Shown here: piece by piece, positions 37,517 through 52,351 of the stretch
How positions within the stretch are numbered: the first letter of the stretch is position 1
How the letters are laid out: every line of letters begins with the position of its first letter
Assembly: GCA_026705605.1 (NCBI GenBank)
Contig: JAPPAK010000006.1
Coordinates: forward strand, 248,001 to 312,000
Direction: 5' to 3'
DNA from: Chloroflexota bacterium
GTDB taxonomy: Bacteria > Chloroflexota > Dehalococcoidia > Tepidiformales > Tepidiformaceae
Length of the DNA: 64,000 bases
Translations under genes and position numbers: made by a program
The notes under the pieces: model-generated
Database searches by the model: none
Told to the model about the DNA's origin: nothing
The model's input: the letters and a program-made list of their open reading frames with translations, nothing else

Positions 37517-38014
37517 ATGGCTGATCTATCCGCCGCCGCACCCGTCGAACCCGACAAGAGCGAGGTCGTCCACGACCGCGACACCCGCCCCGGCCCACCC
37601 GCCGACCGACGGGACTACGTGCGGCTGCTCCTCCACATCGCCATCGCTGCGGCGTTCACCGCGGCCTTCGTGGCGATCGCCTTCCAGGCTCGCGCCAGCT
37701 GGACCGAGGTCCGCGACTGGGTCGTGCCCGTCACCATTCCCCTCTACGCGCTCGGCGGCATCTCCCTCGCCTACCTCGTTCTGCGACGCGCCTGGCTCGA
37801 GGCCTCCGTCGGTGTCACCCTGCTCTTCTTCGCCGTCGCGCTGACCGGCTTTGACCTCTGGCGGGCGGCCCTCACCACCGGGCCCGACGGACTCCGCGAC
37901 AGCTTCTCGATCACCATCGGCGTCCTGCTCGGATTCAGCATTGCCGCGCTTGCCGCCGGCATGGCCTGGGTCGAGGCGCGACGGCCCAGCAAGCCGCCCG
38001 CTCCCGAGCTCTAG
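37517..38014 (+). CDS. hypothetical four-helix membrane protein
   Basis: Unrecognised 165-aa integral membrane protein. A polar proline-rich N-terminal tail (to about residue 33) precedes four predicted membrane helices near residues 36-56, 70-90, 97-113 and 132-150, with a short charged C-terminus. The ATG at 37517 lies 41 nt after the Eis-like gene and the stop is 2 nt before the DUF2277 gene, so the three are likely one transcript. No functional motif is visible. Confidence 0.75.
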   Translation: MADLSAAAPVEPDKSEVVHDRDTRPGPPADRRDYVRLLLHIAIAAAFTAAFVAIAFQARASWTEVRDWVVPVTIPLYALGGISLAYLVLRRAWLEASVGVTLLFFAVALTGFDLWRAALTTGPDGLRDSFSITIGVLLGFSIAALAAGMAWVEARRPSKPPAPEL

Positions 38015-38016
38015 CG

Positions 38017-38220
38017 ATGTGCCGCAGCATCAAGCGGCTGCGCGGCCCCGAGGGCATCGCCCCCGACGACGCCATTCGCGAGGCATCCCTCCAGTACGTC
38101 CGCAAGGTCAGCGGCTTCCGCGCGCCCTCGCGCCGCAACGAGGAAGCGTTCGAGGAGGCCATCGAGCAGGTCGCTGAGGCCACCCGCCGCCTCCTCGACT
38201 CCGTCACCCGACCGCGCTAG
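38017..38220 (+). CDS. DUF2277 family protein
   Basis: 67-aa protein matching DUF2277 over its whole length: MCRSIKRLRGPE at the start, LQYVRKVSGFRAPSRRNEEA in the middle, and AIEQVAEATRRLLDS at the end. The family is widespread and short, with a conserved N-terminal Cys, but has no known function. The gene starts 2 nt after the membrane protein stop and its 3' end overlaps the convergent lipB gene by 17 bp. Confidence 0.9.
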   Translation: MCRSIKRLRGPEGIAPDDAIREASLQYVRKVSGFRAPSRRNEEAFEEAIEQVAEATRRLLDSVTRPR

Positions 38221-38881
38221 CGCTCTCCCCCACCTCGCACTCGAGCACCCGCGCGAACTGCCGCACGAACGCCTCCGCCACCTCCCCCACCGCCACCGGC
38301 CGCCCGACCTCCGCCGACAGGCTCGTCATCTCCGTGTCTTCCAGCCCGCAGGGGTTCATCAGCGCGATGTGCTCCATGTTCGGCGCCACGTTCAGCGCCG
38401 CCCCGTGCATCGAGACGAAGCGCCGCACGTGCAGCCCCACAGACCCCATCTTCCGCTCCCCCACCCAGACCCCTCGCGCGCACTCGTGCCGCCGCCCCTC
38501 GATGCCCCACTCCCCCAGCATGCCGAACATCGTGTCTTCGAGCGCCGACACGTAGTCGACCACCCGCACGCCCCACGCCTGCAGGTCGATGATGCCGTAC
38601 GCCACGAGCTGCCCCGGACCGTGATAGGTGATGTCGCCGCCGCGCTCTGTCTGCGCCACCTCGATCCCCGCCGCCCGCACCATCGCCTCCGTGGCCCGCA
38701 GGTTCGGCTCGGGATGGTTCCGGCCCAGCGTGAATACCGGCTGATGCTCCGTCAGCAGGAGTGTGTCGACGCCCTCCCTGCGGATGCGCTCCGCCTGCAA
38801 CTCCTGCTGCAGCCGGTGGACGTCACCGTACCGGGTCAGCCCCAGATTCCGGACCACGATCGTGCGCTCGCTCGGAGCCAT
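38204..38881 (-). CDS. lipB: octanoyltransferase LipB
   Basis: Lipoyl(octanoyl) transferase, 225 aa, which transfers octanoate from octanoyl-ACP to lipoyl domains of 2-oxoacid dehydrogenases. Family signatures are RGGDITYHGPGQLVAYGIID (residues 80-99), ERKMGSVGLHVRRFVSMHG with the catalytic Lys144, and NPCG with the catalytic Cys178. The ATG at 38881 is preceded by TACGCT at 6 nt; an upstream extension to 39199 lies in another gene's shadow and is rejected. It follows thyX on the same strand, 35 nt away. Lipoyl synthase is not in the window. Confidence 0.96.
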   Translation of the reverse strand: MAPSERTIVVRNLGLTRYGDVHRLQQELQAERIRREGVDTLLLTEHQPVFTLGRNHPEPNLRATEAMVRAAGIEVAQTERGGDITYHGPGQLVAYGIIDLQAWGVRVVDYVSALEDTMFGMLGEWGIEGRRHECARGVWVGERKMGSVGLHVRRFVSMHGAALNVAPNMEHIALMNPCGLEDTEMTSLSAEVGRPVAVGEVAEAFVRQFARVLECEVGESASAVG

Positions 38882-38887
38882 GCTCCT

Positions 38888-38893
38888 AGCGTA
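38888..38893 (-). promoter_or_regulatory. TACGCT -10-like box, 6 nt before lipB ATG
   Basis: The 6-nt spacer (AGGAGC) also contains AGGAG, too close to act as a Shine-Dalgarno. Confidence 0.4.
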
Positions 38894-38916
38894 GCGAGGT
38901 CGCGCGACGCCCGCGA

Positions 38917-39747
38917 TCAGCCGCTGCCCGCGACCTCCGCGCCGATCCCCTCGATCGCGTCCCAGTCCTCCTCGCGCAGCGGCTGGAGCTCGCCCTTCCG
39001 GTACTGGTCGTACAGCCGGAAGAGCGCGTCCTTGTGCGGACGCACCCGTCCGATCGGACACGCCTCCCAGTCCTCTACCGACTCGTCGCAGTAGCCCGTT
39101 CGCAGCTCGCCGCACTTCGGCTGCAGGTAGCTGCCCAGCTCCGGCACGGCCTTCGCCACCTCCGACCGCAACAGCGCCGCTACCCGCCGGAACTCCCACT
39201 GCGCCCGTGTGCAGAGCCGCAGGTCGCAGATGTGCAGAAGGCTCTGGAAGTTCACCGTGATCTTGAAGTTCGTGCTCGTCGCGTTCGGCAGCAGGAAGCG
39301 CGCATCCTCCGCCGGGACGCCCGCCTCAACCAGCTCCTCGTAGAGCGCTCCCGCCTTCCCGAACAGCTCCTCCATCTGCTCCGACATCCCCGCCTTCTCG
39401 ACGCTCTTGGGGACGCTGTAGGGGAACTCGCCCTTTTTGTACGTCACGTACCGCTGGCTCTGCTGCTCGAACGAGATCCCCACCCGGTGCCGCACGAATT
39501 GGTGGCTGAACGCCCGGGAGACGCCCGAGATGGCGAACTCGAACCAGACTTGCTCCAGCGGGCTCGCGTGGCCCGTCTTCAGCCGCTCCACGATGAAGTT
39601 GTGCATCTTCTCGCGCGGGATGCGCTCATCTTCGATCCTGGTCGCCACCTGCTGGGGCGTGAGCTGGCTGTAGCACGTCCGATACGCCATGTAGAGCGAC
39701 CGCATCGGGTCTTCGGAATGCGAAAGTAGAGTGACCTGGATAGGCAT
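38917..39747 (-). CDS. thyX: flavin-dependent thymidylate synthase ThyX
   Basis: FAD- and NADPH-dependent enzyme making dTMP from dUMP with methylene-tetrahydrofolate, 276 aa. The ThyX motif RHR-x7-S-x-R appears as RHRVGISFEQQSQRY, with Arg86, His87 and Arg88 leading it. TGHASPLEQVWFEFAISGVS and NFQSLLHICDLRLCTRAQWE are also conserved. The ATG at 39747 has GGAG 7 nt upstream; a longer form would need a TTG start. It is preceded by an AT-rich leader with a perfect 12-bp palindrome. This is a housekeeping gene in organisms that lack thyA. Confidence 0.97.
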   Translation of the reverse strand: MPIQVTLLSHSEDPMRSLYMAYRTCYSQLTPQQVATRIEDERIPREKMHNFIVERLKTGHASPLEQVWFEFAISGVSRAFSHQFVRHRVGISFEQQSQRYVTYKKGEFPYSVPKSVEKAGMSEQMEELFGKAGALYEELVEAGVPAEDARFLLPNATSTNFKITVNFQSLLHICDLRLCTRAQWEFRRVAALLRSEVAKAVPELGSYLQPKCGELRTGYCDESVEDWEACPIGRVRPHKDALFRLYDQYRKGELQPLREEDWDAIEGIGAEVAGSG

Positions 39748-39760
39748 GGCAAATCTCCGC

Positions 39761-39772
39761 AATTGGCCAATT
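39761..39772. promoter_or_regulatory. 12-bp palindrome in the thyX leader
   Basis: AATTGGCCAATT is a perfect palindrome lying just upstream of the GGAG of thyX, in a leader that also holds TATAGC and TATAAG on the minus strand. It could be an operator for a dimeric regulator or a translation-affecting hairpin. Confidence 0.35.
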
Positions 39773-39901
39773 TGCTATAGCCGATTACTTATACCTTACC
39801 CTAAGGCGCGTTGGGTCGTCGTTGGGGCTTCAAAGGCGCCTACCTGCGGTTCCTGCACGTTCATCTAGGAAGACCTCCAGAGTTAGGTCGTGTAAGGCCC
39901 C

Positions 39902-40555
39902 CTACCCCTCCCCGTACGCCTCCCGCCCCTCGATACCGATCTCGACCAGGTAGCGCCCCGCCTCCGACGCCCGCCCCCCTGCCGTCGACAGCAGCGCGCG
40001 CACGTCCGACGGCGTGTCGAGGTCGAGCGCGAGCGGGGGCGCGTCCGCGCGCCGGACAGCCAGCCCCGCCTCCCGTGCCGCCGCCTCGTGCAGGTCCCCG
40101 CTTCCCCGTCCGTACGCGAGCGGGAAGCGCCCCGGCGGGCGCAGCAGCATCGCGTTCGTGCCCCCGTCCGCCGGCCGCACCAGCGTCGCCGACGGCGCCT
40201 CCGGCGCCTGCGTGACCAGATCCCTCAGCGCCTCCGCCGTCACGAGCGGCAGGTCGGCGTGGAGGATGAGGAGCTCATCGACGCCAAGCTCCTCCGCGGC
40301 CTGCTCGATCTGTGCGCTCAACCCGCGCAGCTCCGGGTCTTCCCCCAGCACGCGCACCCCCTCCGGAACCTCCGCCTCGACCGCCTCGTCCGAGGTCAGC
40401 ACCACCGCCACCATCCCCGCCCCCTCCACCGCCGCCAGCACCGCCGCCAGCGACCGCCGCACCACCTCCGCACGCTCCTGCGGTGCGAGCAGGTCCGCCA
40501 GCCGCCCCTTCGCGCGGTCGAGACGGTTCACCGGGATCAGGACGGTCGTCGGCAT
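39902..40555 (-). CDS. cofC: 2-phospho-L-lactate/phosphoenolpyruvate guanylyltransferase CofC
   Basis: Nucleotidyltransferase of the CofC/FbiD family, 217 aa, which joins GTP to 2-phospholactate or phosphoenolpyruvate in coenzyme F420 synthesis. The N-terminal IPVNRLDRAKGRLADLL holds the nucleotide-binding Lys; LLILHADLPLVT is the metal-binding Asp motif; GGTNAMLLRPPGRFPLAYG and ALDLDTPSDVRALL follow. TACGAT lies 7 nt before the ATG. The presence of F420 synthesis agrees with the LLM-type oxidoreductase near 53.8 kb. The other cof/fbi genes are elsewhere. Confidence 0.92.
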   Translation of the reverse strand: MPTTVLIPVNRLDRAKGRLADLLAPQERAEVVRRSLAAVLAAVEGAGMVAVVLTSDEAVEAEVPEGVRVLGEDPELRGLSAQIEQAAEELGVDELLILHADLPLVTAEALRDLVTQAPEAPSATLVRPADGGTNAMLLRPPGRFPLAYGRGSGDLHEAAAREAGLAVRRADAPPLALDLDTPSDVRALLSTAGGRASEAGRYLVEIGIEGREAYGEG

Positions 40556-40562
40556 CCCCGCG

Positions 40563-40568
40563 ATCGTA
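40563..40568 (-). promoter_or_regulatory. TACGAT -10-like box, 7 nt before cofC ATG
   Basis: The box sits in the 27-nt gap downstream of the preceding gene and would give a leaderless cofC transcript. Confidence 0.35.
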
Positions 40569-40582
40569 CCGTGCGCGGCCCG

Positions 40583-40966
40583 CTACCCCTCGCCGGCGGC
40601 CACCCGCACGGCGAACCCGTCCTCGTTGAGCGCCGTCTCCCCCTCCACCCGCAGCGCCGACTCCCCCACCGCCGCCAGCACCTCCTCCCGCGTCGGGCTC
40701 TCCTCGTCGCCGTCGCTCACCAGCCACCCCCTGGCCCCTTCGACGACGGACAGCATCCAGGCGAGCTTGCTGATGCCTTCCGCCGTCAGCTCCTCCCGCT
40801 GCGGCCACCACGCGATCTGGAGCGCTGGCTCCGCCACCTGCAGCGAGCTCGCGACCGTCGGGCGCGGCTCGAGCCTGCCCGCCTCCCCGAGCACGTCGTC
40901 CGGGGGGTCGATCAGCATCGCCCGCACGCCATCGGCGCCCACGCCCAGCGTGGCGAGCACGTTCAT
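40583..40966 (-). CDS. hypothetical protein
   Basis: 127-aa cytoplasmic protein not recognised with confidence. The core LQVAEPALQIAWWPQREELT followed by LAWMLSVVEGARGWLVSD faintly recalls the alpha/beta pattern of DUF3052 proteins, which help predict a Rossmann-like single domain; this is weak. It lies 16 nt downstream of secA and 27 nt upstream of cofC on the same strand. No catalytic motif is visible. Confidence 0.65.
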   Translation of the reverse strand: MNVLATLGVGADGVRAMLIDPPDDVLGEAGRLEPRPTVASSLQVAEPALQIAWWPQREELTAEGISKLAWMLSVVEGARGWLVSDGDEESPTREEVLAAVGESALRVEGETALNEDGFAVRVAAGEG

Positions 40967-40982
40967 GCGCGGTCCGGTCCGG

Positions 40983-43619
40983 TCAGGCGAGCTTGCCGCA
41001 GCACTTCTTGTACTTCAGGCCGCTGCCGCAGTAGCAAGGGTCGTTCCGCCCGATCTTCTTGCCGCCCGGCCTGGGCGCGGTCGCGGTTGCCGCAACTGTC
41101 CTGCCTCGCGCTTGCCCGTTGCCGCCGGGTGCGGCGCCGTTGCCCCGTGCCTGCACGGGCGCCTGCGGCGCGTCCGGACGGCGCGCGGTCGCCCCGTTCG
41201 GAGGCGGGGGCGGCGGAAGGTCCTTCGCCCGCATCTTGAAGACCGCCTGCGCCACCTGCCGCCGAATGTTCCCCTGCAGCTGCTGGAACATGTCGTAGCC
41301 CTCGCGCTTGAAGGCCACCAGCGGGTCCACCTGCGCGTACGCCTGCAGACCGACGCTCTGCCGCACCTCCTCCACCGCCGTCAGGTGCTCGCGCCAGTGG
41401 TAGTCGATCGACTCCAGCAGCAGCCACTGCTCCATCCTGCGCGCAATCTCCTCGCCCACCGCCTCCTCGATCTCCTCGTAGCGATCCTCGATGCGGTCGA
41501 GCGCGGTGTCCGCCACGCGTTCCCGCTCATCCTCGATCTCCTCGAGGCTGGGCAGGATGTCGGGCGGCATGATCTCGCCCAGCTCCGTGTGTACGAGGCT
41601 CGCGTCGAAGCCCTCGTCGCTGTTCCGCTCGACGATGCCGTCGACCTCCTCCGTCACGAACGAGAACACGTTCTCCCGCACGTCCGCCCCCTCCAGCACC
41701 TTGTCCCGCTCCGTGTACAGCACCGCCCGCTGCTCGTTGATGACGTCGTCGAACTCCACCAGCCGCTTGCGGATGTCGAAGTTGTAGCCCTCCACCTTCT
41801 GCTGCGCCTGCTCGATCGCGCGCGTCACCATGCGCGATTCGAGGGGCAGGTCCTCCGTCATCCCCATCTTCTCCAGCATTCCCGGCACCCAGTCCGGTGC
41901 GAAGCGCTGCATGATGTCGTCGCCGAACGAGACGAAGAAGCGGCTCGAGCCCGGATCCCCCTGCCGGCCCGACCGCCCCCGCAGCTGGTTATCGATGCGC
42001 CGCGATTCGTGCCGCTCCGTCCCGATGACGTGCAGCCCGCCCGCCTGTGCGACCCCTTCCCGCAGCTTGATGTCCGTACCGCGGCCGGCCATGTTCGTCG
42101 CGATCACCACCGCCCCCGGCTCGCCCGCGTTCTCCACGATGTGCGCCTCGCGCTCGTGCTGCTTCGCGTTCAGCACCTCGTGGTCGATGCCCCGCCGCCG
42201 CAGCAGCGTCGCCAGGTACTCCGACTTCTCGATCGACGTCGTGCCCACCAGCACCGGCCGCCCGTGCCCGTGCATCCCGACGATCTCCTCCACCACCGCC
42301 GCGAACTTCGCCTTCTCGTTGATGTAGACCACGTCTTCCTGGTCGTCGCGCATCATCGGCTTGTTCGTGGGAATGACCACTACGTCCAGGTCGTAGATCT
42401 TCGCGAACTCCTCCGCCTCCGTTTCCGCCGTTCCCGTCATCCCCGCCAGCTTCTCGTACAGCCGGAAGTAGTTCTGGAACGTGATCGTCGCGTACGTCAG
42501 CGACTCCCGCTGGATGGGCACGTTCTCTTTCGCCTCCACCGCCTGGTGGATGCCGTGGCTCCAGCGCCGCCCCGGCATCATCCGCCCCGTGAACTCGTCG
42601 ACAATCACGATCTCGCGGTTGCGAACCACGTATTCGCGGTCGGGCCGCTTCAGGTACTCCGCGTCGAGCGCCGCCTCCAGGTGCCGCGCGACCCGGGGAT
42701 CGCCCCCGAAGACGTTGTCGACCCTGAGAGCCCGCTCGATCTTGGCGATGCCCGTCTCCGTCAGGGCCACGTGCTTCGCCTTCTGGTCGATCTGGTAGTC
42801 GAGCTCGGCGTGCAGGCCGCGCACCGCCCGCGCGAACTGCTGGTACGTCCCGCTCGCCTCCTCCGCCTGCCCGCTGATGATGAGCGGCGTCCGCGCCTCG
42901 TCGATGAGGATGTTGTCCACCTCGTCGACGATCGCGTAGTAGAGCGGCCGCTGCGTCTTCAGCTCCGACTCGCGCACCATGTTGTCGCGCAGGTAGTCGA
43001 ACCCGAACTCGTTGTTCGTCCCGTAGGTCACGTCCGTCCGGTACACGTCGCGACGCTCACAGGGGCGCAGATCTTCGAGACCGCCTTCCCCGTCCTCGCC
43101 CGGCCGGTAGCCCGGCTCGTACAGATACTGGATGTGGTCGTTCTGGATGACGCCGAGGGTCATGCCGAGGGCGTGGAACACGGGTCCGTACCAGGCGGCG
43201 TCGCGACGGGCCAGGTAGTCGTTCACGGTCACCAGGTGGGCGCCCTTGCCCGCCAGCGCGTTCAGGTAGAGCGCCCCGATCGCGGTGAGGGTCTTCCCCT
43301 CGCCCGTCTTCATCTCCGCGATCTTTCCCTGGTGCAGCACCATCATGCCCATCAGCTGCACCGAATAGGGGCGCTCTTCCACTTTGCGCCAGGCCATCTC
43401 CCGGACCGTCGCGAACGCCTCCGGGGCGATGTCGTCGAGCGTCTCGCCCTGCTCCAGGCGCTCCCGGAACTCTTTCGTCAGTCCACCCAGTTCTTCGTCC
43501 GAGAGGCGCGAAAACTCCTCGGCGAGATCCTCGATCGCGCCGATCCGGGAGGCGAGGCGCTTGACCTCGCGCTCGTTCGAGCCGCCCACCACGCGGTTGA
43601 TGAAGCCGAGCTTCGTCAT
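40983..43619 (-). CDS. secA: preprotein translocase ATPase SecA
   Basis: ATP-driven motor of the Sec export pathway, 878 aa, typical length. The DEAD-like motor has AEMKTGEGKTLTAIGALYLN (Walker A), YAIVDEVDNILIDEARTPLI (Walker B and beyond) and RGTDIKL/GRSGRQGDPGSSRF in the second domain. The C-terminus ends in the zinc-binding GRNDPCYCGSGLKYKKCCGK used for SecB or lipid contact, after a Pro/Gly-rich linker. TACACT lies 6 nt before the ATG. Exported substrates in this window include several lipoproteins and the giant A2M-like protein. Confidence 0.98.
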   Translation of the reverse strand: MTKLGFINRVVGGSNEREVKRLASRIGAIEDLAEEFSRLSDEELGGLTKEFRERLEQGETLDDIAPEAFATVREMAWRKVEERPYSVQLMGMMVLHQGKIAEMKTGEGKTLTAIGALYLNALAGKGAHLVTVNDYLARRDAAWYGPVFHALGMTLGVIQNDHIQYLYEPGYRPGEDGEGGLEDLRPCERRDVYRTDVTYGTNNEFGFDYLRDNMVRESELKTQRPLYYAIVDEVDNILIDEARTPLIISGQAEEASGTYQQFARAVRGLHAELDYQIDQKAKHVALTETGIAKIERALRVDNVFGGDPRVARHLEAALDAEYLKRPDREYVVRNREIVIVDEFTGRMMPGRRWSHGIHQAVEAKENVPIQRESLTYATITFQNYFRLYEKLAGMTGTAETEAEEFAKIYDLDVVVIPTNKPMMRDDQEDVVYINEKAKFAAVVEEIVGMHGHGRPVLVGTTSIEKSEYLATLLRRRGIDHEVLNAKQHEREAHIVENAGEPGAVVIATNMAGRGTDIKLREGVAQAGGLHVIGTERHESRRIDNQLRGRSGRQGDPGSSRFFVSFGDDIMQRFAPDWVPGMLEKMGMTEDLPLESRMVTRAIEQAQQKVEGYNFDIRKRLVEFDDVINEQRAVLYTERDKVLEGADVRENVFSFVTEEVDGIVERNSDEGFDASLVHTELGEIMPPDILPSLEEIEDERERVADTALDRIEDRYEEIEEAVGEEIARRMEQWLLLESIDYHWREHLTAVEEVRQSVGLQAYAQVDPLVAFKREGYDMFQQLQGNIRRQVAQAVFKMRAKDLPPPPPPNGATARRPDAPQAPVQARGNGAAPGGNGQARGRTVAATATAPRPGGKKIGRNDPCYCGSGLKYKKCCGKLA

Positions 43620-43625
43620 GGAGCC

Positions 43626-43631
43626 AGTGTA
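43626..43631 (-). promoter_or_regulatory. TACACT -10-like box, 6 nt before secA ATG
   Basis: It lies between the hairpin ending the selenoprotein gene and the secA start codon, with no ribosome-binding site. Confidence 0.5.
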
Positions 43632-43632
43632 T

Positions 43633-43664
43633 CGCGCCCCGCCCTCTGCGAGGAACGGGGCGCG
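43633..43664 (-). terminator. hairpin after the UGSC selenoprotein gene
   Basis: A perfect 9-bp stem CGCGCCCCG/CGGGGCGCG encloses a 14-nt loop, 10 nt after the selenoprotein stop codon and just before the secA box. There is no T-run, so it may be a weak or Rho-assisted terminator. Confidence 0.5.
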
Positions 43665-43674
43665 TTTCCCCGAT

Positions 43675-44193
43675 CTAGTCGATCAGCGCCGCGATCACGT
43701 CCTCGACGATCGCGTCCGCCTTCTCGCGCATCTCGTCGTCGTTCGCGTCCTGGATCGGATGCGGCACGAAGAGCCGCCGTACCTCCGGCAGCCCCAGCGA
43801 CTCAGCCTGCGCCTCCGCCGCCTCCTCGAACTCGTCCGACGCGATGAACACCGACGGGATTCCGTTGATTTCCAGCCAGGTCGTGTCGTGCACACTGCAC
43901 GTCGTGCACGACCCTCAGTCCGCTAACCCTTCGACGACGAAGTCGGCCTCCTTCGCCAGCTCCTGCTTGAGCGCTTCCGGGGCCGGTTTCGTGAAGGTGG
44001 GCTTGCTGTAGCGCAGCACGTCCACCTCCGGGAGCCGCTCCCGCAGGCGCGCCTCCAGCTGGTCGAGCAGGACGTCGCCCCGGGGCTTCGAGATGTCCAG
44101 CAGCGCGACCGTTCCGCTGATCGCCTCCGGCCGCTTCGTGAGTGAGCGCCGTACCGGGACGCGCTCGTCCGTCGGGTCGAGAATCGTGGTCAT
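43675..44193 (-). CDS. UGSC-family selenoprotein (in-frame UGA = Sec93)
   Basis: Read through one in-frame TGA (43917-43915, codon 93), this is a 172-aa protein. The residues around the TGA read GLAD-U-GSCTTCSVHDTTW, which is the defining U-G-S-C motif of a selenoprotein family first seen in marine metagenomes. Without readthrough the locus looks like a 92-aa protein followed by a separate 72-aa ORF in the same frame, with continuous homology. A hairpin suitable as SECIS follows the TGA. A TATAAT box lies 33 nt before the ATG. The protein is cytoplasmic and probably redox-active, with Sec93, Cys96 and Cys99 close together; its reaction is unknown. It is divergent from a second selenoprotein gene. 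Confidence 0.88.
43886..43911 (-). promoter_or_regulatory. SECIS-like hairpin of the UGSC selenoprotein gene
   Basis: TCGTGCAC (43911-43904) pairs perfectly with GTGCACGA (43893-43886). The 10-nt loop begins with G and can close further by two A-T/C-G pairs. The stem starts 3 nt after the TGA, so the loop is 11-14 nt downstream, slightly closer than the usual bacterial SECIS spacing. Confidence 0.6.
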
Positions 44194-44226
44194 GGGCGCC
44201 CTCCCCGAGAGTCCGCGAGTGGCCTG

Positions 44227-44232
44227 ATTATA
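44227..44232 (-). promoter_or_regulatory. TATAAT -10 box of the UGSC selenoprotein gene
   Basis: A consensus TATAAT on the minus strand lies 33 nt before the ATG, with a GGGGAGGG-like ribosome-binding site in the leader. No clear -35 was seen. Confidence 0.55.
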
Positions 44233-44323
44233 GCGCCGCTCCCACCGCTCAGGACGCTACACTGGTCGCAGGTCCGATAGCCGGGGGCCAACAGCTAACA
44301 GCCCCGACATGGAGGTGCTTCCC

Positions 44324-44575
44324 ATGGCTCAGCACAACCTGGCGATCTCGATCGAATACTGCGTCCCCTGAGACTACACCGCACGGGCCGCGTGGACGGC
44401 CCAGGAACTCCTCGCCAAGTTCGCCGAGCAAACCGCCTCCCTCACCCTCATCCCCGGAGATACGGGCGCCTTCGAGGTCCAGGTCGATGGCGACCTCGTC
44501 TACTCGAAGCAGGCAGAGGGCCGCTTCCCCGAGATGAAAGAGCTGGAGGATGCAATCGCCGCCCGACTCCCGTAG
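44324..44575 (+). CDS. SelW/Rdx-family selenoprotein (in-frame UGA = Sec16)
   Basis: 83-aa thioredoxin-like protein if the TGA at 44369-44371 is read as selenocysteine. The sequence SIEYCVP-U-DYTARAAW gives the C-x-x-U motif (Cys13, Sec16) at the place used by SelW, SelT and Rdx proteins. The rest fits the family: LTLIPGDTGAFEVQVDGDL and SKQAEGRFPEMKELEDAI. GGAGG lies 8 nt before the ATG; an in-frame ATG at 44309 would overlap it. A bacterial SECIS-type hairpin follows the TGA. Rdx proteins are redox proteins, probably acting with glutathione- or thioredoxin-like partners. The gene is followed 39 nt later by a NIPSNAP-like gene and is divergent from the UGSC gene. Confidence 0.9.
44385..44402 (+). 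promoter_or_regulatory. SECIS element of the SelW/Rdx gene
   Basis: GGGCCG (44385-44390) pairs with CGGCCC (44397-44402) around the 6-nt loop CGTGGA. The apical loop begins 20 nt after the TGA and has G in its second position, both features expected of bacterial SECIS elements. Confidence 0.75.
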
Positions 44576-44614
44576 ATCAGGCCAACAGCAAAGCGCGAAA
44601 CCGGAGGTTTCCCA

Positions 44615-44953
44615 ATGCCTTTCATGCTCGTTCGCCTGGAGTGCAAGTACGGCAAGACCCAGGAATTCCAGGAGATCATGTCGCACCTCGTGCCCGTCCT
44701 CGAAAAGAACGGCTGGCGACTGCACGGCGCCTACCAGAACAGCATCGGGCGCCTGAACCGCTGCTACGACCTCTGGGAGATGCCCGACGCCAACGCCGTT
44801 CGGTCGGTGCTCGAAGTCGCCGGCAAGGATCCGGAGTTCAGTGAGTGGTCGAAGGGGCTCGGCGACTGCCTCGAAGAGGAGGAGCTGGAGTTCATGAACG
44901 AGCTGCCCTACTCCATCGAGGCGCGGGAGCGCCGTGCCGCGGCGGAGGGCTGA
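44615..44953 (+). CDS. NIPSNAP-like dimeric alpha-beta barrel protein
   Basis: 112-aa protein with the ferredoxin-like fold expected of NIPSNAP/EthD-type proteins: MLVRLECKYGKTQEFQEIM, WRLHGAYQNSIGRLNRCYDLWE and a C-terminal helix. GGAGG lies 7 nt before the ATG. It follows the SelW-like gene in the same direction and may be co-expressed. Such proteins often act as small dimeric binding proteins or monooxygenase-like accessories; function here is not known. Confidence 0.75.
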   Translation: MPFMLVRLECKYGKTQEFQEIMSHLVPVLEKNGWRLHGAYQNSIGRLNRCYDLWEMPDANAVRSVLEVAGKDPEFSEWSKGLGDCLEEEELEFMNELPYSIEARERRAAAEG

Positions 44954-45010
44954 CCTGCAGGGAGACGCAGAAGCTTTAGCTTTCGTCGCGGTTACGGAGT
45001 GCCGCGGTCT

Positions 45011-45016
45011 TACACT
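45011..45016 (+). promoter_or_regulatory. TACACT -10-like box, 8 nt before dCTP deaminase ATG
   Basis: TACACT ends 8 nt before the start codon with no Shine-Dalgarno, a leaderless arrangement. Confidence 0.45.
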
Positions 45017-45024
45017 CGCCCGGC

Positions 45025-46233
45025 ATGTCTGAGGGAGTGGACGTGTCCCACCAGATTGAGCCTACCGAGGGGGAGCAGGCCGCCGCTCCGTGGTGCCCGC
45101 CGCCCCCCGCGGAGCCCATCTGGCCCGAGACCTGGGACCTGCCCCCCGGCGTCGTTCCCCGCCAGACCCTGCGCGAAGCGGAGCGCCTCGGCATCCTCAC
45201 CACCACCGCCGTCGAGATCCCCGAGAGCGGCTTCCAGCCCGCCAGCCTCGACCTCCTCCTCGGTCCCACCGCTTACCGCATCGGCTCCAGCTTCCTCCCA
45301 GGCGACTGCACCGTTCGCGAGCGCCTCACCGACCTCCAGATCGACAAGGGCATCGACATTCGTAACGGCGGCATCCTCGAACCGAAGCGCCCCTACCTCA
45401 TCCCACTCATGGAAGGCCTCCGGCTGCCCGACAACGTCCGCGCCTTCACCAACCCCAAGAGCTCCACGGGCCGCGTCGACATCTTCACCCGCGTCGTCAC
45501 CGACTACTCCCACCGCTTCGACGACATCGCTCCCGGCTACCAGGGCGCCCTCTGGCTCGAGGTGTTCTCCCGCTCGTTCCTCGTGAAGGTGCACGCGGGC
45601 ATGGCCCTCAACCAGCTCCGCTTCATCGTCGAGGACCCCTCGGGCGCTGAGGCGCCTCCCTCCCTCCCGCCGTCCGCCCCCGAGACCGTGCGGATCCAGC
45701 TTCGCCCGTCGCCCGAAGAGCCGGACGCCGGCGACGGCGACGGCGGGGTCATGCCCGTCGGCTTCAAGGCGAGGCGCAACAGCGCCCTCCTCGACCTGGC
45801 CAACAGGGACCACGACCCACGCGAGTTCTGGGAAGCCATCTGGCCCGCCAACCAGCTCGTGCTCGAACCCGAGGAGTTCTACCTCCTCCGTTCCCGGGAG
45901 CAGATCGCGATCCCCGCCGAGCTCGCCGCCGAGATGGTTCCCTTCGACCCCACCAGCGGCGAGCTTCGCACGCACTACGCCGGGTTCTTCGATCCCGGCT
46001 TCGGCGCCGGCGTCCCCAACGGGCTGCCCGCTGTCCTTGAGGTGCGCGCCCATGACGTGCCCTTCATGCTCGAAGACGGCCAGGAAGTCGCCACCCTCCG
46101 CTACCAGCAGCTCGCCGGTCCGCCGGACCGCCTCTACGGCCGCGATGCCGGCTCCCACTACGGCGACGAGCGCCAGTGGCGCTTCCTCAGCAAGCACTTC
46201 CGCTCGTGGGGCCAGCTCCCCCTGCGCTTCTAG
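45025..46233 (+). CDS. 2'-deoxycytidine 5'-triphosphate deaminase (two-domain type)
   Basis: 402-aa protein of the dCTP deaminase/dUTPase superfamily, about twice the length of ordinary Dcd. The first half has FTNPKSSTGRVDIFTRVVTD and LWLEVFSRSFLVKVHAGMAL; after an acidic, Pro-rich linker (about residues 205-240) the second half has HYAGFFDPGFGAG and LEVRAHDVPFMLEDGQEVA, the DPGF and glutamate motifs of the family. This two-domain form (DCD_N type) is best known from Alphaproteobacteria. It would make dUTP from dCTP for thymidylate supply, which fits ThyX at 39 kb. TACACT supports the start. Confidence 0.85.
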   Translation: MSEGVDVSHQIEPTEGEQAAAPWCPPPPAEPIWPETWDLPPGVVPRQTLREAERLGILTTTAVEIPESGFQPASLDLLLGPTAYRIGSSFLPGDCTVRERLTDLQIDKGIDIRNGGILEPKRPYLIPLMEGLRLPDNVRAFTNPKSSTGRVDIFTRVVTDYSHRFDDIAPGYQGALWLEVFSRSFLVKVHAGMALNQLRFIVEDPSGAEAPPSLPPSAPETVRIQLRPSPEEPDAGDGDGGVMPVGFKARRNSALLDLANRDHDPREFWEAIWPANQLVLEPEEFYLLRSREQIAIPAELAAEMVPFDPTSGELRTHYAGFFDPGFGAGVPNGLPAVLEVRAHDVPFMLEDGQEVATLRYQQLAGPPDRLYGRDAGSHYGDERQWRFLSKHFRSWGQLPLRF

Positions 46234-46307
46234 CCTCCCCACCCCGCCGCCGGTGCCGCTCCCGCCTCCGGAGCGATAGACTGAGCGTTCACGTTTTGGA
46301 GCGCAGC

Positions 46308-47201
46308 ATGTCCACGATCGGCCGACTCCTTACCGCCATGGTTACCCCCTACACCGCCGGGGGCGAGGTCGACTACGCCCTGGCCCGCCGCCTCGCCGCC
46401 TCCCTCGTCCGCGCCGGAAACGAAGGCGTCGTCGTGACCGGCACCACCGGCGAGTCTCCCCTCCTGAGCGACGACGAGAAGGCTCGCCTCTGGGAGGAGA
46501 CCAAGCAGGAGCTCGGCGATGGCGGCACCGTCGTCGCCGGCGCCGGCACCAACGACACCCACCACTCCGTCAAGCTCGCGAAGCGCGCCGAGGCCGCCGG
46601 CGCAGACGCCATCCTTGCCGTCGCGCCCTACTACATCCGCCCGCCCCAGGCCGGCATCATTGAGCACTTCCGCCAGATCGCCGAGAGCACCAGCCTACCC
46701 GTGATTGTCTACAACGTGCCCGGCCGCACCGGCGTCAATCTCACCGTCGATACGCTCCTGCAGCTCGCCGAGATTCCGAACATCGCCGGCAACAAGGAGG
46801 CCAACGGCGACCTCCATGCCACCGCCCGCGTGCTGGAGGAGAAGCCCGACTTCCGCATCTGGAGCGGCAACGACAACGACAACTTCCACCTCTGGGCCAT
46901 GGGCGCCTACGGGGCCATCAGCGTCACCGCCCACATCGTCGCCGGACGCCAGCGCGCCATGCTCGACCACGTCCTCGCCGGCGATCTCGCCGCCGCCGCC
47001 GACATCCACCGCCCGCTCGTGCCCCTCACCGACGCCTGCTTCCTCAACGGCAGCCCCAGCACCATCCGCTACGTCCTCCGCCAGCTTGGCGTCGATATCG
47101 GCGCCCCGCGCCTCCCCGTTGTCGAGCCCGACGAGGCCGTCGGCGCGAAGGTCATGGCCGAGGTGAATCGCCACCAGCTCGATACCTTCACCGTGAGCTG
47201 A
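46308..47201 (+). CDS. dapA: 4-hydroxy-tetrahydrodipicolinate synthase
   Basis: TIM-barrel class I aldolase of 297 aa that condenses pyruvate with aspartate semialdehyde in lysine and diaminopimelate synthesis. GTTGES (residues 45-50) is the Thr pair loop, VYNVPGRTGVNL contains Tyr135 and Arg140, and NIAGNKEANGD has the Schiff-base Lys163. The start has GGAG upstream and removes an upstream in-frame extension. The DHDPS/NAL family includes other aldolases, but these residues match the DapA group well. It is flanked by dCTP deaminase and a RodZ-like gene. Confidence 0.9.
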   Translation: MSTIGRLLTAMVTPYTAGGEVDYALARRLAASLVRAGNEGVVVTGTTGESPLLSDDEKARLWEETKQELGDGGTVVAGAGTNDTHHSVKLAKRAEAAGADAILAVAPYYIRPPQAGIIEHFRQIAESTSLPVIVYNVPGRTGVNLTVDTLLQLAEIPNIAGNKEANGDLHATARVLEEKPDFRIWSGNDNDNFHLWAMGAYGAISVTAHIVAGRQRAMLDHVLAGDLAAAADIHRPLVPLTDACFLNGSPSTIRYVLRQLGVDIGAPRLPVVEPDEAVGAKVMAEVNRHQLDTFTVS

Positions 47202-47292
47202 GGCGGATCCGGACGGCCCCGCGGCGAGCCTTCTTCCCGTGTTTGGCTCCCCTTGCCCCTGAGTGTTACCGTCCCCCCTCTGGAGTGGCGCG

Positions 47293-48069
47293 ATGAGCGG
47301 CCTCGGCATCGGTGAGCGGCTGATCGAGGCTCGCGAGCAGCGCGGCCTTTCCCTCGAAGACGCCGAGCGCGATACCCGGATCTCCCGCCGCTACCTCCAG
47401 GCCCTCGAGGACGAGCGCTTCGACATCATCCCCGCGCCCGTCTATGCGCGGGGCTTCCTCCGCTCCTACTCCCAGTACCTTGGCGTCGAGACGGCTCCGC
47501 TGCTGGCGCGCTTTCCCCAGGACACCCCCACGCCCGGCTCCCCTGCCCGCCAGCCGAGCCAGGAGGACCGCTCCGGTCGCGGCCCCTCCGCCCTCTTCGG
47601 TTCGCGCGTCCCCGAGGAACCCATGATCGGCGTCGACATCGGCGTCGCCATCCCCACCCGCCGTATCGGCGCGGGCCCCACCTCCATCGCCCGTACCGGA
47701 ATCATCGCCGCCGTTGCCATCGGCGTCACCGCGCTCGTCGTCGTCCTCGCGATTGTCATCGCCAACACCGGCGCCGGGAACGGCGAAAACGGGCTCACCT
47801 CCTCTCCCAACCCCACGTCCACCGCCGAAGCCACGGCGGATACGGCTGCCAGCGGCCTCGATGTCCAGCGCGGCGTCGTGCCCGACGTTATCGGTCAGCC
47901 TGAGGACATCGCCCGCCGCGCCGTCGAGGAGGCCGGTTTCGTCGTGACCGTCGTGACCGATCGCAACGAGCAGTACCCCCGTGGAACCGTCTTCGAGCAG
48001 GCCCCCACGGCCGGTGTCGAGCAGGAGCCCGGGCGTGGCGTCTTCATCGCCGTGAGCGAGGGCCCGTAG
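47293..48069 (+). CDS. RodZ-like helix-turn-helix protein with PASTA domain
   Basis: 258-aa bitopic membrane protein. The N-terminal HTH_25 domain reads IGERLIEAREQRGLSLEDAE and YLQALEDERFDIIPAPVYARG, as in RodZ. A Pro/Ser-rich linker leads to one membrane helix (about residues 137-158, IIAAVAIGVTALVVVLAIV), then an external low-complexity linker and a PASTA-like domain (VPDVIGQPEDIARRAVEEAG to the end). RodZ links cell shape to MreB; PASTA domains bind cell-wall fragments or muropeptides. The fusion suggests a cell-envelope sensor or scaffold. GGAG precedes the start. Confidence 0.85.
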   Translation: MSGLGIGERLIEAREQRGLSLEDAERDTRISRRYLQALEDERFDIIPAPVYARGFLRSYSQYLGVETAPLLARFPQDTPTPGSPARQPSQEDRSGRGPSALFGSRVPEEPMIGVDIGVAIPTRRIGAGPTSIARTGIIAAVAIGVTALVVVLAIVIANTGAGNGENGLTSSPNPTSTAEATADTAASGLDVQRGVVPDVIGQPEDIARRAVEEAGFVVTVVTDRNEQYPRGTVFEQAPTAGVEQEPGRGVFIAVSEGP

Positions 48070-48094
48070 AGGATTCCGTAGCAGGCCCAGCCGT

Positions 48095-48100
48095 TAGCAT
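48095..48100 (+). promoter_or_regulatory. TAGCAT -10-like box, 6 nt before aminotransferase ATG
   Basis: TAGCAT in the 37-bp gap after the RodZ-like gene, spaced 6 nt from ATG. Confidence 0.4.
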
Positions 48101-48106
48101 GGGCCA

Positions 48107-49282
48107 ATGACCGAGATTCCTTCCCTTGATCCCCCCAAGCGCGTCCTCATGGGCCCCGGCCCCAGCGGCGCCGATACGAGCGTGCTTGCCGCCATGGGGC
48201 TCCCGCTCCTCGGCCACCTCGACCCCGAGTTCATCCGCATCATGGACGAGTGCCAGCAGATGATGCGGCAGGTACTCCGCACCGAGAACGAGGTCACCCT
48301 CGCCACGCCCGGCACCGGCACCAGCGGCATGGAAGCGACCGTGATGAACCTGCTCCAGCCGGGCGACCGCGCCATCATCGGTATCTGCGGCTACTTCGGT
48401 GACCGCATCTCCCAGATGGCCGCCCGCACCGGCGCCGAGGTCACCATCGTGACCGCCCCCTGGGGCTCCCCCATCCCCCCCGAGGCCATCGAGCGCGAGC
48501 TCCGCGCCGCCCCCACCAAGCTCGTCGCCGTCGTCCACGCCGAGACATCCACCGGCGTCCGCCAGCCCGTCGAAGCCATCTCCGCGCTCTGCAAGGAACA
48601 CGGCGCCCTCCTGCTCCTCGATTGCGTCACCTCCCTCGGCGGCGTGCCCGTCGAGATCGACGAGTGGGGCGTCGACGCCGCCTACTCGGGCACGCAGAAG
48701 TGCCTCTCCGCGCCTCCCGGCGCCTCCCCCGTCACCCTCTCCCCCGCCGCCTGGAGCGCCATCCAGGCCCGCGAGGCGCCCTCCAACAGCTGGTACCTCG
48801 ACCTCAACCTCCTCGAGGCCTACTGGGACAGCCGCCGCGCCTACCACCATACCTCCCCCATCTCCATGACCTACGCCCTCCACCGCGCCCTCGCCCTCGT
48901 CCTCGAAGAGGGCCTCGAGAGCCGCTGGCACCGCCACGAGAGCAACGGCCGCGCCCTCCAGGCCGGGCTTGAGGCGATGGGGCTAACCCTTCACGCCGAT
49001 GCCGACCACCGCCTCCCCGTCCTCACCACCGTGCGCATCCCCGAAGGCATCACCGACACCGATATCCGTGGCGCCCTCCTGCAGCGCTTCGGTATCGAGG
49101 TCGGCGGCGGCATCGGCGAGCTGGGCGGTCGTATCTGGCGAGTGGGTCTCATGGGCGAATCGTCGACCGCCGGCAACGTGCTCTTCTTCCTTGCCTCCCT
49201 GGGGCGGTTGCTGCGCGAACACGGCTTCCAGGCAGATGTTGGCGCCGCGCTCGACGTGGCTGCCTCCCGCCTCGACTCATGA
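48107..49282 (+). CDS. class V aminotransferase (alanine/serine-glyoxylate type)
   Basis: PLP-dependent aminotransferase, 391 aa, of the alanine-glyoxylate/serine-pyruvate group. MGPGPSGADTSVLAAM at the start, TPGTGTSGMEATVMNL, VHAETSTGVRQP and LLLLDCVTSLGG are all characteristic, and the PLP lysine lies in YSGTQKCLSAPPG at about residue 200. It would transfer an amino group from alanine or serine to glyoxylate, or act in serine metabolism or photorespiration-like salvage. The stop overlaps the next gene's start by 4 nt. Confidence 0.93.
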   Translation: MTEIPSLDPPKRVLMGPGPSGADTSVLAAMGLPLLGHLDPEFIRIMDECQQMMRQVLRTENEVTLATPGTGTSGMEATVMNLLQPGDRAIIGICGYFGDRISQMAARTGAEVTIVTAPWGSPIPPEAIERELRAAPTKLVAVVHAETSTGVRQPVEAISALCKEHGALLLLDCVTSLGGVPVEIDEWGVDAAYSGTQKCLSAPPGASPVTLSPAAWSAIQAREAPSNSWYLDLNLLEAYWDSRRAYHHTSPISMTYALHRALALVLEEGLESRWHRHESNGRALQAGLEAMGLTLHADADHRLPVLTTVRIPEGITDTDIRGALLQRFGIEVGGGIGELGGRIWRVGLMGESSTAGNVLFFLASLGRLLREHGFQADVGAALDVAASRLDS

Positions 49283-50610
49283 CCCCTGGCCCGCGGCGAC
49301 CGCTTCTGCTCGTCGCGGGCCTGTTCGCGGGCGCTGTCCTGCTGGCCTGTGGCGGTTCCTCCATGCCGGACCGGCCGCCTCCCGCAACCGGCTCCCCCTC
49401 CCCCCAACCCGCCTCAACCCCGGCCGCAACTGCTGACGGCACTCCCGCCGCCACGGGAACCGCGGCGGTCGCCACCTCTTCGCCTCGTCCGACCGAGACC
49501 TCCGACCTGCCGGACGAACCCCCCGCCGCCGTCCTCGTCCCCGCCTTCCCCGGCCTCCCCGAGTACGAGCGCCCCATCGACCTCGTCCACCTCCCCGCCC
49601 ACAACCTCGTCCTGATCGTGCTGCAGGAAGGACGGGTCCTCGGCGTTCCCCCGGATGGTCCCTACGACGCGCCGCACACCGTTCACGACCAGCGCCAGAT
49701 CACCACATGCTGCAATGAGGATGGCCTGCTCTCCATCGCCCTGGACCCGGACTTCGCCACGAACGGCTACGTCTACGCCTTCTACAGTGCGGCCGAGCCG
49801 CGGGGCGTGAGCCGCCTCTCGCGCTTTGCCACGACCGGCCAGGGCGAGACGTTTGCGTTCGATTCCGCCAGCGAATTGACCCTCTTCGAGGTCGGTCAGC
49901 CGTACGTCAATCACAACGGCGGAACCGTCCTCTTCGGACCCGACGGCATGCTCTACCTCGGCCTCGGCGATGGCGGCGCCGCCAACGACCCCCACGGCCA
50001 CGGCCAGAACCTCCGAACCCACCTCAGCACGATCATCCGCATCGACGTGCGCAACGCGACGAGGGACGAGCCCTACACCATCCCCCCCGACAACCCCTTC
50101 CTCGACCAGGACGGCGTCCTCCCCGAGATCTGGGCCTACGGCCTGCGAAACCCCTGGCGCATGAGCTTCGACCGCGAGACCGGCCTCCTCTGGGCAGGCG
50201 ACGTCGGCCAGAACGATGTCGAAGAGGTCAGCATCATCGAGCGGGGAGGGAATTACGGCTGGAAGACCATGGAGGGTTCTCGCTGCTTCCATCCCGAGAC
50301 GGGCTGCGACCGCAGCGGCCTCACCCTCCCCGTCTGGGAATACTCTCACGACGTCGGCTGCTCCATCACGGGGGGGCTCGTCTACCGCGGCGAGGCCATT
50401 CCCGCCCTGTACGGCTGGTACGTGTACACCGACTACTGCACCGGACACATCACGGCCATCCACGCCGAAACCGCCGCCACCCGCGGCTTTGTCGAGCCCA
50501 TTGTCCTCTGGGACAAAGGCCCGATCGAAGCCGTCTCCTTCGCCGAAGACGCCGACGGCGAACTCTATTTCGTCACGTTCCGGGGGATCTTCCGGATCGT
50601 CGCCCCGTAG
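49279..50610 (+). CDS. PQQ-dependent sugar dehydrogenase-like lipoprotein
   Basis: 443-aa exported protein. The signal sequence ends in a lipobox-like LLAC (Cys24) and is followed by a Pro/Thr/Ala-rich linker to about residue 80. The rest is a beta-propeller of the glucose/sorbosone dehydrogenase family (GSDH): GLLSIALDPDFATNGYVYAF, HNGGTVLFGPDGMLYLGLGD, EIWAYGLRNPWRMSFD and AGDVGQNDVEEVS. Members oxidise aldose sugars with PQQ at the cell surface, though several lack activity. It is coupled to the aminotransferase gene and its 3' end overlaps the convergent SDR gene by 38 bp. Confidence 0.9.
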   Translation: MTPGPRRPLLLVAGLFAGAVLLACGGSSMPDRPPPATGSPSPQPASTPAATADGTPAATGTAAVATSSPRPTETSDLPDEPPAAVLVPAFPGLPEYERPIDLVHLPAHNLVLIVLQEGRVLGVPPDGPYDAPHTVHDQRQITTCCNEDGLLSIALDPDFATNGYVYAFYSAAEPRGVSRLSRFATTGQGETFAFDSASELTLFEVGQPYVNHNGGTVLFGPDGMLYLGLGDGGAANDPHGHGQNLRTHLSTIIRIDVRNATRDEPYTIPPDNPFLDQDGVLPEIWAYGLRNPWRMSFDRETGLLWAGDVGQNDVEEVSIIERGGNYGWKTMEGSRCFHPETGCDRSGLTLPVWEYSHDVGCSITGGLVYRGEAIPALYGWYVYTDYCTGHITAIHAETAATRGFVEPIVLWDKGPIEAVSFAEDADGELYFVTFRGIFRIVAP

Positions 50611-52351
50611 CGACCTGGGCCATGTCCTCCATGGTGAAGCCCCACCCCTCTGCTCGACGATCCCGCTCCCACACGTCGTCGGGCGTCGTCCGCCGCGCCG
50701 GGATGAGCCGCAGGGCGTCTTCCCCCAGCGGCCAGCGCATCGGAAGCCGCTGCTGCAGCTGGACCGCGTCGGCGATCGCCATCCCCACCGCATCCGACCC
50801 CGGCCGCGTCGCCGCCACCGCCCGAAACTCCTCGAGCTTGCGCTCGATCCCCGGCTGATACGCGCTGCGCCCCTCGCGAACCGCCACGCATACGTCGAGG
50901 CTGCTCGTCTGCCAGTCGCTGCGGTACTGGCCCGGCTGCAGGATGGTTACCTGCACGCCGAACGGCGCCACCTCGTCCGCCAGTGCCTCCGACATCGCTT
51001 CCACGGCGAACTTCGAGGCCGCATACATGCCCCGCGTCGCTCGCGGCACCTGCCCCGAGAGCGAGCTGACGTTCACAATCTTCCCCCAGCCCTGCTCCCG
51101 CATCCCCGGCAGCACCGCCTGCTGCATCCGCCATTGCCCCAGCAGGTTCGTATCGAGCTGCCGCCGACACTCTTCCTCGCTCAGGTCCTCCAGCGGCCCG
51201 TAGAGCCCGTAACCCGCGTTGTTCACGACCACGTCGATGCGCCCGAACCGCTCCCGCACCGCCGCCACCCCCGCCGCGACCGACTCCGCGTCCGTCACGT
51301 CCAGCGCGAACGGCTCGATGCGGTCCTCGAACCCCTCCCGCACCGCCGCCCCGTCCCGCTCAGGGTTCCGCATCGTTGCCGCCACGAGGTTCCCCCGCGC
51401 CGCGCACTCCCGCGCCGCCGCCGCCCCGAAGCCCCGCGACGCCCCCGTGATGAGCACCACGCTCTCGCCACCCCAGTCGCGTTCGGCGCCGCCCTGCTCC
51501 CCGGGACGCCGCCACGTCCGCAGCGTCCGTGCGCGCCGCAGCGCTTCCCACCCCGCCTCCGTCGTGCCCAGCCGCGACTCGATCAGGTGCGTGCTGTCCT
51601 CCCCCACGGGCCAGCGCATCGGCAGCGGCTGCTCCAGCTCCACCATGTCCGCCATTGCCACCCCCACCGAACCCGAGGCCGGGCGCGTCTTCGCCCGCGC
51701 CCGGAAGTTCGCCAGCGCCGCCTCGACTGTCTCCTGGTAGGCGCTGCGGCCCTCGAGCTGCGGCGCCGCCACGTCCAGGCTCCCCGTCTGCCAGTCGCTC
51801 ACATACATTCCCGGCTCAAGGACGCACACCTGCACGCCCGTGTGGCCCACCTCGAAACGAAGCGCTTCCGACATCCCCTCGACGCCGTGCTTCACCGCTG
51901 CGTACATCCCCAGCCACGCCCCCGGTACCCGCCCCGCCAGCGAGCTCACGTTCACGATCTTCCCCGCCCCCTGGGCCCGCATCGAAGGCAGTACCGCCTT
52001 CGCCAGCCGCCACTGCCCCAGCACGTTCGTATCGACCTGCCGCCACACCTGCTCCTCCGACACCTCCTCGATAGGCCCGTAGAGCCCGTAGCCCGCGTTG
52101 TTGATGAGCACGTCGATGCGGCCGCGTCGGGCCAGCGTCTCCCCCACCACCCGCTCCACGCCCTCCGGGTCGGTCACGTCCAGCCGTACGGCCGTGATGC
52201 GGTCCTCCAGCCCCTCCACCACCTCCGGACCGTCGCGCTCGGGATTCCGCATCGTCGCGACGACCTGGTTCCCCCGCGCCGCGATGCGCCGCGCCGCCTC
52301 CGCCCCGAACCCCCGCGACGCCCCCGTTATCAGCACGACCTGTTCGTTCAC
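50573..52351 (-). CDS. double short-chain dehydrogenase/reductase fusion
   Basis: 592-aa protein made of two full SDR domains. The first has TGASRGFGAEAARR, INNAGYGLYGPIEEV, and the catalytic MYAAVK; the second, from about residue 308, has TGASRGFGAAAARE, VNNAGYGLYGPLEDL and MYAASK. Both share the same C-terminal block (LPMRWPVGEDSTHLI, then LPMRWPLGEDALRLI), so the fusion arose by internal duplication of a complete gene. The linker between them is Arg/Gly-rich. The GTG start at 52351 has GGAGG 5 nt upstream. It should reduce or oxidise carbonyl/alcohol groups with NAD(P); the substrate is unknown. Confidence 0.88.
   Translation of the reverse strand: MNEQVVLITGASRGFGAEAARRIAARGNQVVATMRNPERDGPEVVEGLEDRITAVRLDVTDPEGVERVVGETLARRGRIDVLINNAGYGLYGPIEEVSEEQVWRQVDTNVLGQWRLAKAVLPSMRAQGAGKIVNVSSLAGRVPGAWLGMYAAVKHGVEGMSEALRFEVGHTGVQVCVLEPGMYVSDWQTGSLDVAAPQLEGRSAYQETVEAALANFRARAKTRPASGSVGVAMADMVELEQPLPMRWPVGEDSTHLIESRLGTTEAGWEALRRARTLRTWRRPGEQGGAERDWGGESVVLITGASRGFGAAAARECAARGNLVAATMRNPERDGAAVREGFEDRIEPFALDVTDAESVAAGVAAVRERFGRIDVVVNNAGYGLYGPLEDLSEEECRRQLDTNLLGQWRMQQAVLPGMREQGWGKIVNVSSLSGQVPRATRGMYAASKFAVEAMSEALADEVAPFGVQVTILQPGQYRSDWQTSSLDVCVAVREGRSAYQPGIERKLEEFRAVAATRPGSDAVGMAIADAVQLQQRLPMRWPLGEDALRLIPARRTTPDDVWERDRRAEGWGFTMEDMAQVATGRRSGRSPGT

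Follow-up and report, generated by a model that had tools for sequence, protein, structure and literature searches.

Introduction

Selenoproteins of the SelW-like kind are already known in bacteria. Rdx with CxxU is tabulated as a prokaryotic selenoprotein family in the accessible part of PMC9312934. As far as the available text of the surveys goes, GOS samples have SelW-like and UGSC proteins in the top group of their selenoprotein families by abundance (PMC2398784), and for aquatic metagenomes the same is stated for both families in PMC9312934 and for SelW-like proteins in PMC1088965. The role of SelW-like proteins is called unclear in the available part of PMC1088965, which also gives a G within a small apical loop as a criterion for the bacterial SECIS. 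Described SelW-like bacterial selenoproteins (PF10262, TIGR02174; accessible parts of PMC1088965, PMC2398784 and PMC9312934) share with the gene reported here the C-x-x-U motif, the length, the family score and a stem-loop past the UGA. There is no essential difference between them and our gene, for which we note a UGSC gene neighbourhood. UGSC (NF041046, PF24696) is a different family and stands to the SelW-like gene as a neighbour, not as a homologue. Solved bacterial Rdx proteins such as 2fa8 (Atu0228), 2obk and 2p0g are homologous to our protein along almost the entire length (2fa8: E 3.7e-16), and in the alignment with 2fa8, the best solved match, Cys stands where our gene has TGA.

The gene lies in a stretch of 64,000 nucleotides (the window) of a 2.79 Mb genome assembled in 9 contigs. 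It adds a member to a known family, which is already named in the accessible part of PMC2398784, and is a clean case of a selenoprotein overlooked by plain gene calling. Of more use is its recurrent pairing with a UGSC gene, which gives two widespread selenoprotein families, both of unclear role, a candidate partner open to test.

Results and Discussion

Layout and family of the SelW-like gene

A preliminary description of this DNA had proposed an ATG preceded by GGAGG, a TGA at the Sec position of C-x-x-U and a frame of 83 residues. All of these are read in the sequence, as follows.

44311–44315, + strand: GGAGG, probable ribosome-binding site by its sequence, 8 nt 5' of the ATG
44324–44575, + strand: gene for a SelW-like/Rdx selenoprotein of 83 residues, with TAG as stop, translated with TGA as Sec (PF10262, TIGR02174)
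44369–44371, + strand: in-frame TGA at codon 16, presumed Sec codon of C-x-x-U, TGA in 9/9 same-genus genomes
44385–44402, + strand: stem-loop, putative bacterial SECIS with comparative support; 6-bp stem of 44385–44390 with 44397–44402, loop 44391–44396

The gene starts with the ATG at 44324 and stops with the TAG at 44573–44575. If the TGA is translated as Sec, the product begins MAQHNLAISIEYCVPUDYTARAAW and its motif is CVPU. It had also been claimed that no standard ORF call would report the gene. This holds for a plain ORF list (at least 80 aa, window positions 38000–51000), from which the gene is absent and in which overlapping ORFs of other frames are given instead. Genes of this kind are well known, though, and are covered by curated models.

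The proposed membership in the SelW/Rdx family agrees with the profile comparisons. PF10262 (Rdx) in Pfam matches the product with 92.9 bits (cut-off 22.6, E 1.4e-26) over positions 2–72 of the 74 in the profile, and the NCBIfam model TIGR02174 (SelT/SelW/SelH) with 70.8 bits (cut-off 34.2, E 8.8e-20). The score against the NCBIfam model NF041051 (SelTWH_Campy) is 79.3 bits, under its curated cut-off of 88, so that only the broader TIGR02174 applies. The earlier observation is confirmed and the SelW-like gene is a real gene.

The TGA codon in homologues and the selenocysteine machinery

A search of 196 related genomes, one of them that of the window itself, found a match to the SelW-like protein in 78. 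Each of the nine same-genus genomes has one TGA-bearing copy, and at the position corresponding to codon 16 TGA is also found in distant members of the class. A set of 52 distinct homologues, read at this position, shows TGA in 36, TGC in 15, TGT in one and nothing else, so homologues carry TGA or Cys at the position that had been assigned to Sec. It is important to note that 20 loci were chosen for carrying TGA and the set is enriched for it; the proportion of TGA to Cys means little for this reason, while the exclusivity of the two does carry weight. Purifying selection continues beyond the TGA: dN/dS downstream of it is 0.10–0.31 in all eight within-genus comparisons with the window gene as the reference.

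Regarding the machinery, one tRNA-Sec match is over the Rfam cut-off (71.1 bits against 47, with 12 weaker matches under it), and ARAGORN confirms this tRNA with the anticodon TCA. SelB (302 bits, cut-off 242), SelA (518 bits, cut-off 268) and SelD (347 bits, cut-off 125) are all found in the genome. In 14 control genomes, matches over the cut-off were obtained for tRNA-Sec in five, for SelB in two, for SelD in two and for SelA in one.

The SelD locus (L019, G000 contig C4, 368824–369756) has an in-frame TGA of its own, and because of it the SelD of this genome is probably itself a selenoprotein.

The stem-loop after the TGA

A bacterial SECIS is a stem-loop shortly 3' of the UGA. The hairpin that had been described here (6 bp, loop CGTGGA, 13 nt of spacing) is exact in the sequence: GGGCCG pairs with CGGCCC around CGTGGA, and 13 nt lie between the TGA and the start of the stem. 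The apical loop, CGUGGA in the mRNA, is small and contains a G, as looked for in SelW-like selenoproteins.

Across 15 aligned sequences 97.8% of the stem cells are paired. More specifically, stem pair 2 is G-C in nine and C-G in five of the 14 close Sec homologues, a double change in which both sides are synonymous third codon positions. In the same 14 homologues, three of 32 degenerate codons never vary (A22, A23 and T25), and all three are within the stem-loop. The codons counted have at least four synonyms and specify a residue conserved in 12 or more of the 14 sequences, a cut-off chosen in the analysis; below it there are a few more uniform codons, for example codon 49 (Ala in 9 of 14). 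Invariant codons together with a covarying pair are expected of an RNA element embedded in coding sequence. The switch from G-C to C-G divides one genus from the others and could have happened only once on the tree. Two-sided pair changes are no more numerous than in shuffles (227 of 500 reach the observed number), and in a more distant homologue (L042) two of the six stem pairs are broken.

Hairpin energy was also considered and was dropped as evidence. Compared with dinucleotide shuffles the hairpin has a z of −0.77, and 39 of 200 shuffles fold as well or better. The mean z is −0.61 in 36 Sec copies against −0.78 in 16 Cys copies, which means that Sec copies fold no better than shuffles or Cys copies. 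For DNA this rich in GC the folding energy is unremarkable. Support for the putative SECIS is comparative and not thermodynamic. A second helix drawn 3' of the stem (columns 36–45) was rejected with only 57.8% of its cells paired.

Decoding of codon 16

We consider that the gene encodes a SelW/Rdx-type selenoprotein, with a probability of roughly 0.96. SelB and Sec-tRNA would bind at the stem-loop just past the UGA and place Sec at codon 16, giving a C-x-x-U thiol-disulfide redox centre; if Sec-tRNA were lacking, the ribosome would halt after 15 codons. The protein would work in thiol-disulfide exchange, and we take it to have the thioredoxin-like fold and thiol-redox role of a SelW/Rdx-type product. 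From the observed family membership, conserved TGA, selection past it, conserved covarying stem and Sec machinery we infer the insertion of Sec, the function of the stem-loop as SECIS and the redox activity.

A pseudogene or a sequencing error would turn the TGA into a true stop or a miscalled TGC or TGT, and the existence of Cys homologues means that a single base change gives a Cys codon. Both a miscalled codon and a true stop in homologues had been named in advance as outcomes that would overturn the selenoprotein reading; they were sought and are absent, as the same codon is TGA in all nine same-genus genomes and in distant class members and the 52 sequences have TGA or Cys only. Conservation of the TGA in independent genomes weighs decisively against such an origin. 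Taken with the exclusivity of TGA and Cys and the dN/dS downstream, it means that neither a sequencing error nor a dead gene is tenable, and the presence of Sec machinery also speaks against it; the probability that we leave to it is negligible. Decoding of the TGA as another amino acid, by near-cognate readthrough or under a reassigned code, gains from the fact that Sec at this codon is deduced from sequence data. Against this stand the codons that replace TGA, which specify Cys in 16/16 distinct sequences, the joint presence of SelA, SelB, SelD and tRNA-Sec, and neighbouring genes such as those for secA and dCTP deaminase, which are normal under table 11. We regard this decoding as very improbable, although a little less so than a pseudogene or an error, and keep to Sec at codon 16.

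Genes next to the SelW-like gene

The SelW-like gene is flanked in the window by the following features.

43675–44193, − strand: UGSC-family selenoprotein gene, divergent neighbour, 172 residues, in-frame TGA at 43915–43917 (NF041046, PF24696)
44194–44323, no strand: 130 nt of intergenic DNA separating the two divergent selenoprotein genes; presumed promoter region
44615–44953, + strand: NIPSNAP-family protein gene, 112 residues, 39 nt 3' of the SelW-like gene (PF07978, E 7.7e-10)

The UGSC neighbour scores 170 bits against NF041046 (cut-off 125) and 168 bits against PF24696, and its TGA is the U of the UGSC motif. The plain ORF list shortens it to 92 residues. The NIPSNAP gene adjoins the SelW-like gene in 9/9 same-genus genomes; its product has no NCBIfam match.

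Pairing of Rdx and UGSC genes

In this genome both detected Rdx genes adjoin both detected UGSC genes. The second Rdx gene (L002) has TGC at the Sec position and is followed by a UGSC gene 49 nt later (between profile matches). The TGA-type Rdx is divergent from UGSC in all nine same-genus copies, eight of them within 160 nt and one at 2.6 kb (match to match). The second, TGA-free Rdx copies have UGSC downstream within 62 nt in 8/8 same-genus genomes that possess one. Where both families occur (43 genomes), at least 31 of 59 Rdx copies, spread over at least 23 genomes, have a listed UGSC no more than 6 kb away; these counts are lower bounds owing to fragmented assemblies and to the use of UGSC among the matches listed, and they come from related genomes that are not independent. 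Split by type, this applies to at least 9 of 26 TGA-type copies, which all belong to this genus, and to at least 22 of 33 TGA-free ones. Outside the genus, the 17 TGA-type Rdx copies all lack a listed UGSC at this distance. The phylum was sampled evenly with 251 genomes, and no Rdx–UGSC pair within 6 kb is present in the 15 of them that are outside the class and have both families. Pairing is seen repeatedly in some parts of the class, and these absences speak against a general rule. It is not described in the accessible parts of PMC2398784, PMC13188914, PMC1088965, PMC1794560, PMC7539508, PMC9312934 and PMC5029168.

The UGSC family may have distant relatives. In five of six UGSC proteins other than that of the window, the Sec region matches models of glycine/sarcosine/betaine reductase component B with best E values of 9e-6 to 0.002, the scores lying far below the curated cut-offs; the sixth protein has no such match. 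The UGSC protein of the window itself matches at E 0.019, and among solved structures no counterpart to it was found up to E 10. When the six other proteins were scanned, one of them was also matched by an unrelated terpene synthase model at E 9.8e-5, so that a single hit this strong may be due to chance. As a whole, the comparison suggests distant kinship with component B and not membership.

Taken together with the gene pairing, this kinship suggests a redox partnership of Rdx and UGSC, which is plausible and unproven. The SelW-like protein, besides being a selenoprotein, could be a functional partner of UGSC, passing electrons to or from a protein similar to the Sec domain found in component B of glycine reductase. 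The adjacency of both gene pairs in this genome, its constancy in the genus in the divergent (TGA-type) and downstream (TGA-free) arrangements, its recurrence in at least 23 of the 43 genomes and the component B matches argue for such a role. The lack of pairs within 6 kb for the 17 TGA-type Rdx copies outside the genus and in the 15 genomes outside the class argues against it, as do the low scores of the matches and the protein that has none; moreover, adjacency of genes is not interaction. On balance we see the partnership as a tentative idea, rather unlikely as it stands.

A wider proposal is that Rdx/SelW and UGSC form one redox system in this part of the class, with two versions in the genus: a divergent one with TGA in both genes and with NIPSNAP, and a tandem one with TGA in UGSC only. 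UGSC would be a stand-alone relative of the glycine/proline-reductase B Sec domain and Rdx its redox partner. If this is true, it would be a first clue to the function of two selenoprotein families that are common in the sea. We find this proposal more doubtful than the partnership itself.

Further observations on the families

The Cys-type Rdx of this genome and the UGSC gene directly after it, which has an in-frame TGA, lie at 661010–661796 of G000 contig C4 (in L088), and the arrangement is present in same-genus genomes too. The four large ORFs chosen just 3' of UGSC at further Rdx–UGSC sites (L088, L089, L091 and L092) have no Pfam match at E 0.001, and the same is true of an 827-codon ORF between Rdx and UGSC in G004 (L090). 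At two loci (L032 in G026 and L034 in G014) a Cys-type and a TGA-type Rdx are arranged in tandem, with match-to-match gaps of 118 nt and 87 nt, respectively; no UGSC on these contigs is among the matches listed. The UGSC family is expanded in G058, G064, G065, G081 and G082, with 12 to at least 17 matches per genome. An in-frame TGA is found in every UGSC among the matches listed for G058, G064, G065 and G082; no UGSC of G081 is among them.

Among the same-genus loci the NIPSNAP protein changes more slowly than the SelW-like protein; its identity is 93.8–100% in seven of nine loci, our own included, and 79–83% in the other two, whereas that of the SelW-like protein drops to 72%. A luciferase-like monooxygenase gene is found directly 5' of Rdx on the same strand in two genomes of family f21, at 4531–5529 of L089 and 4692–5240 of L091.
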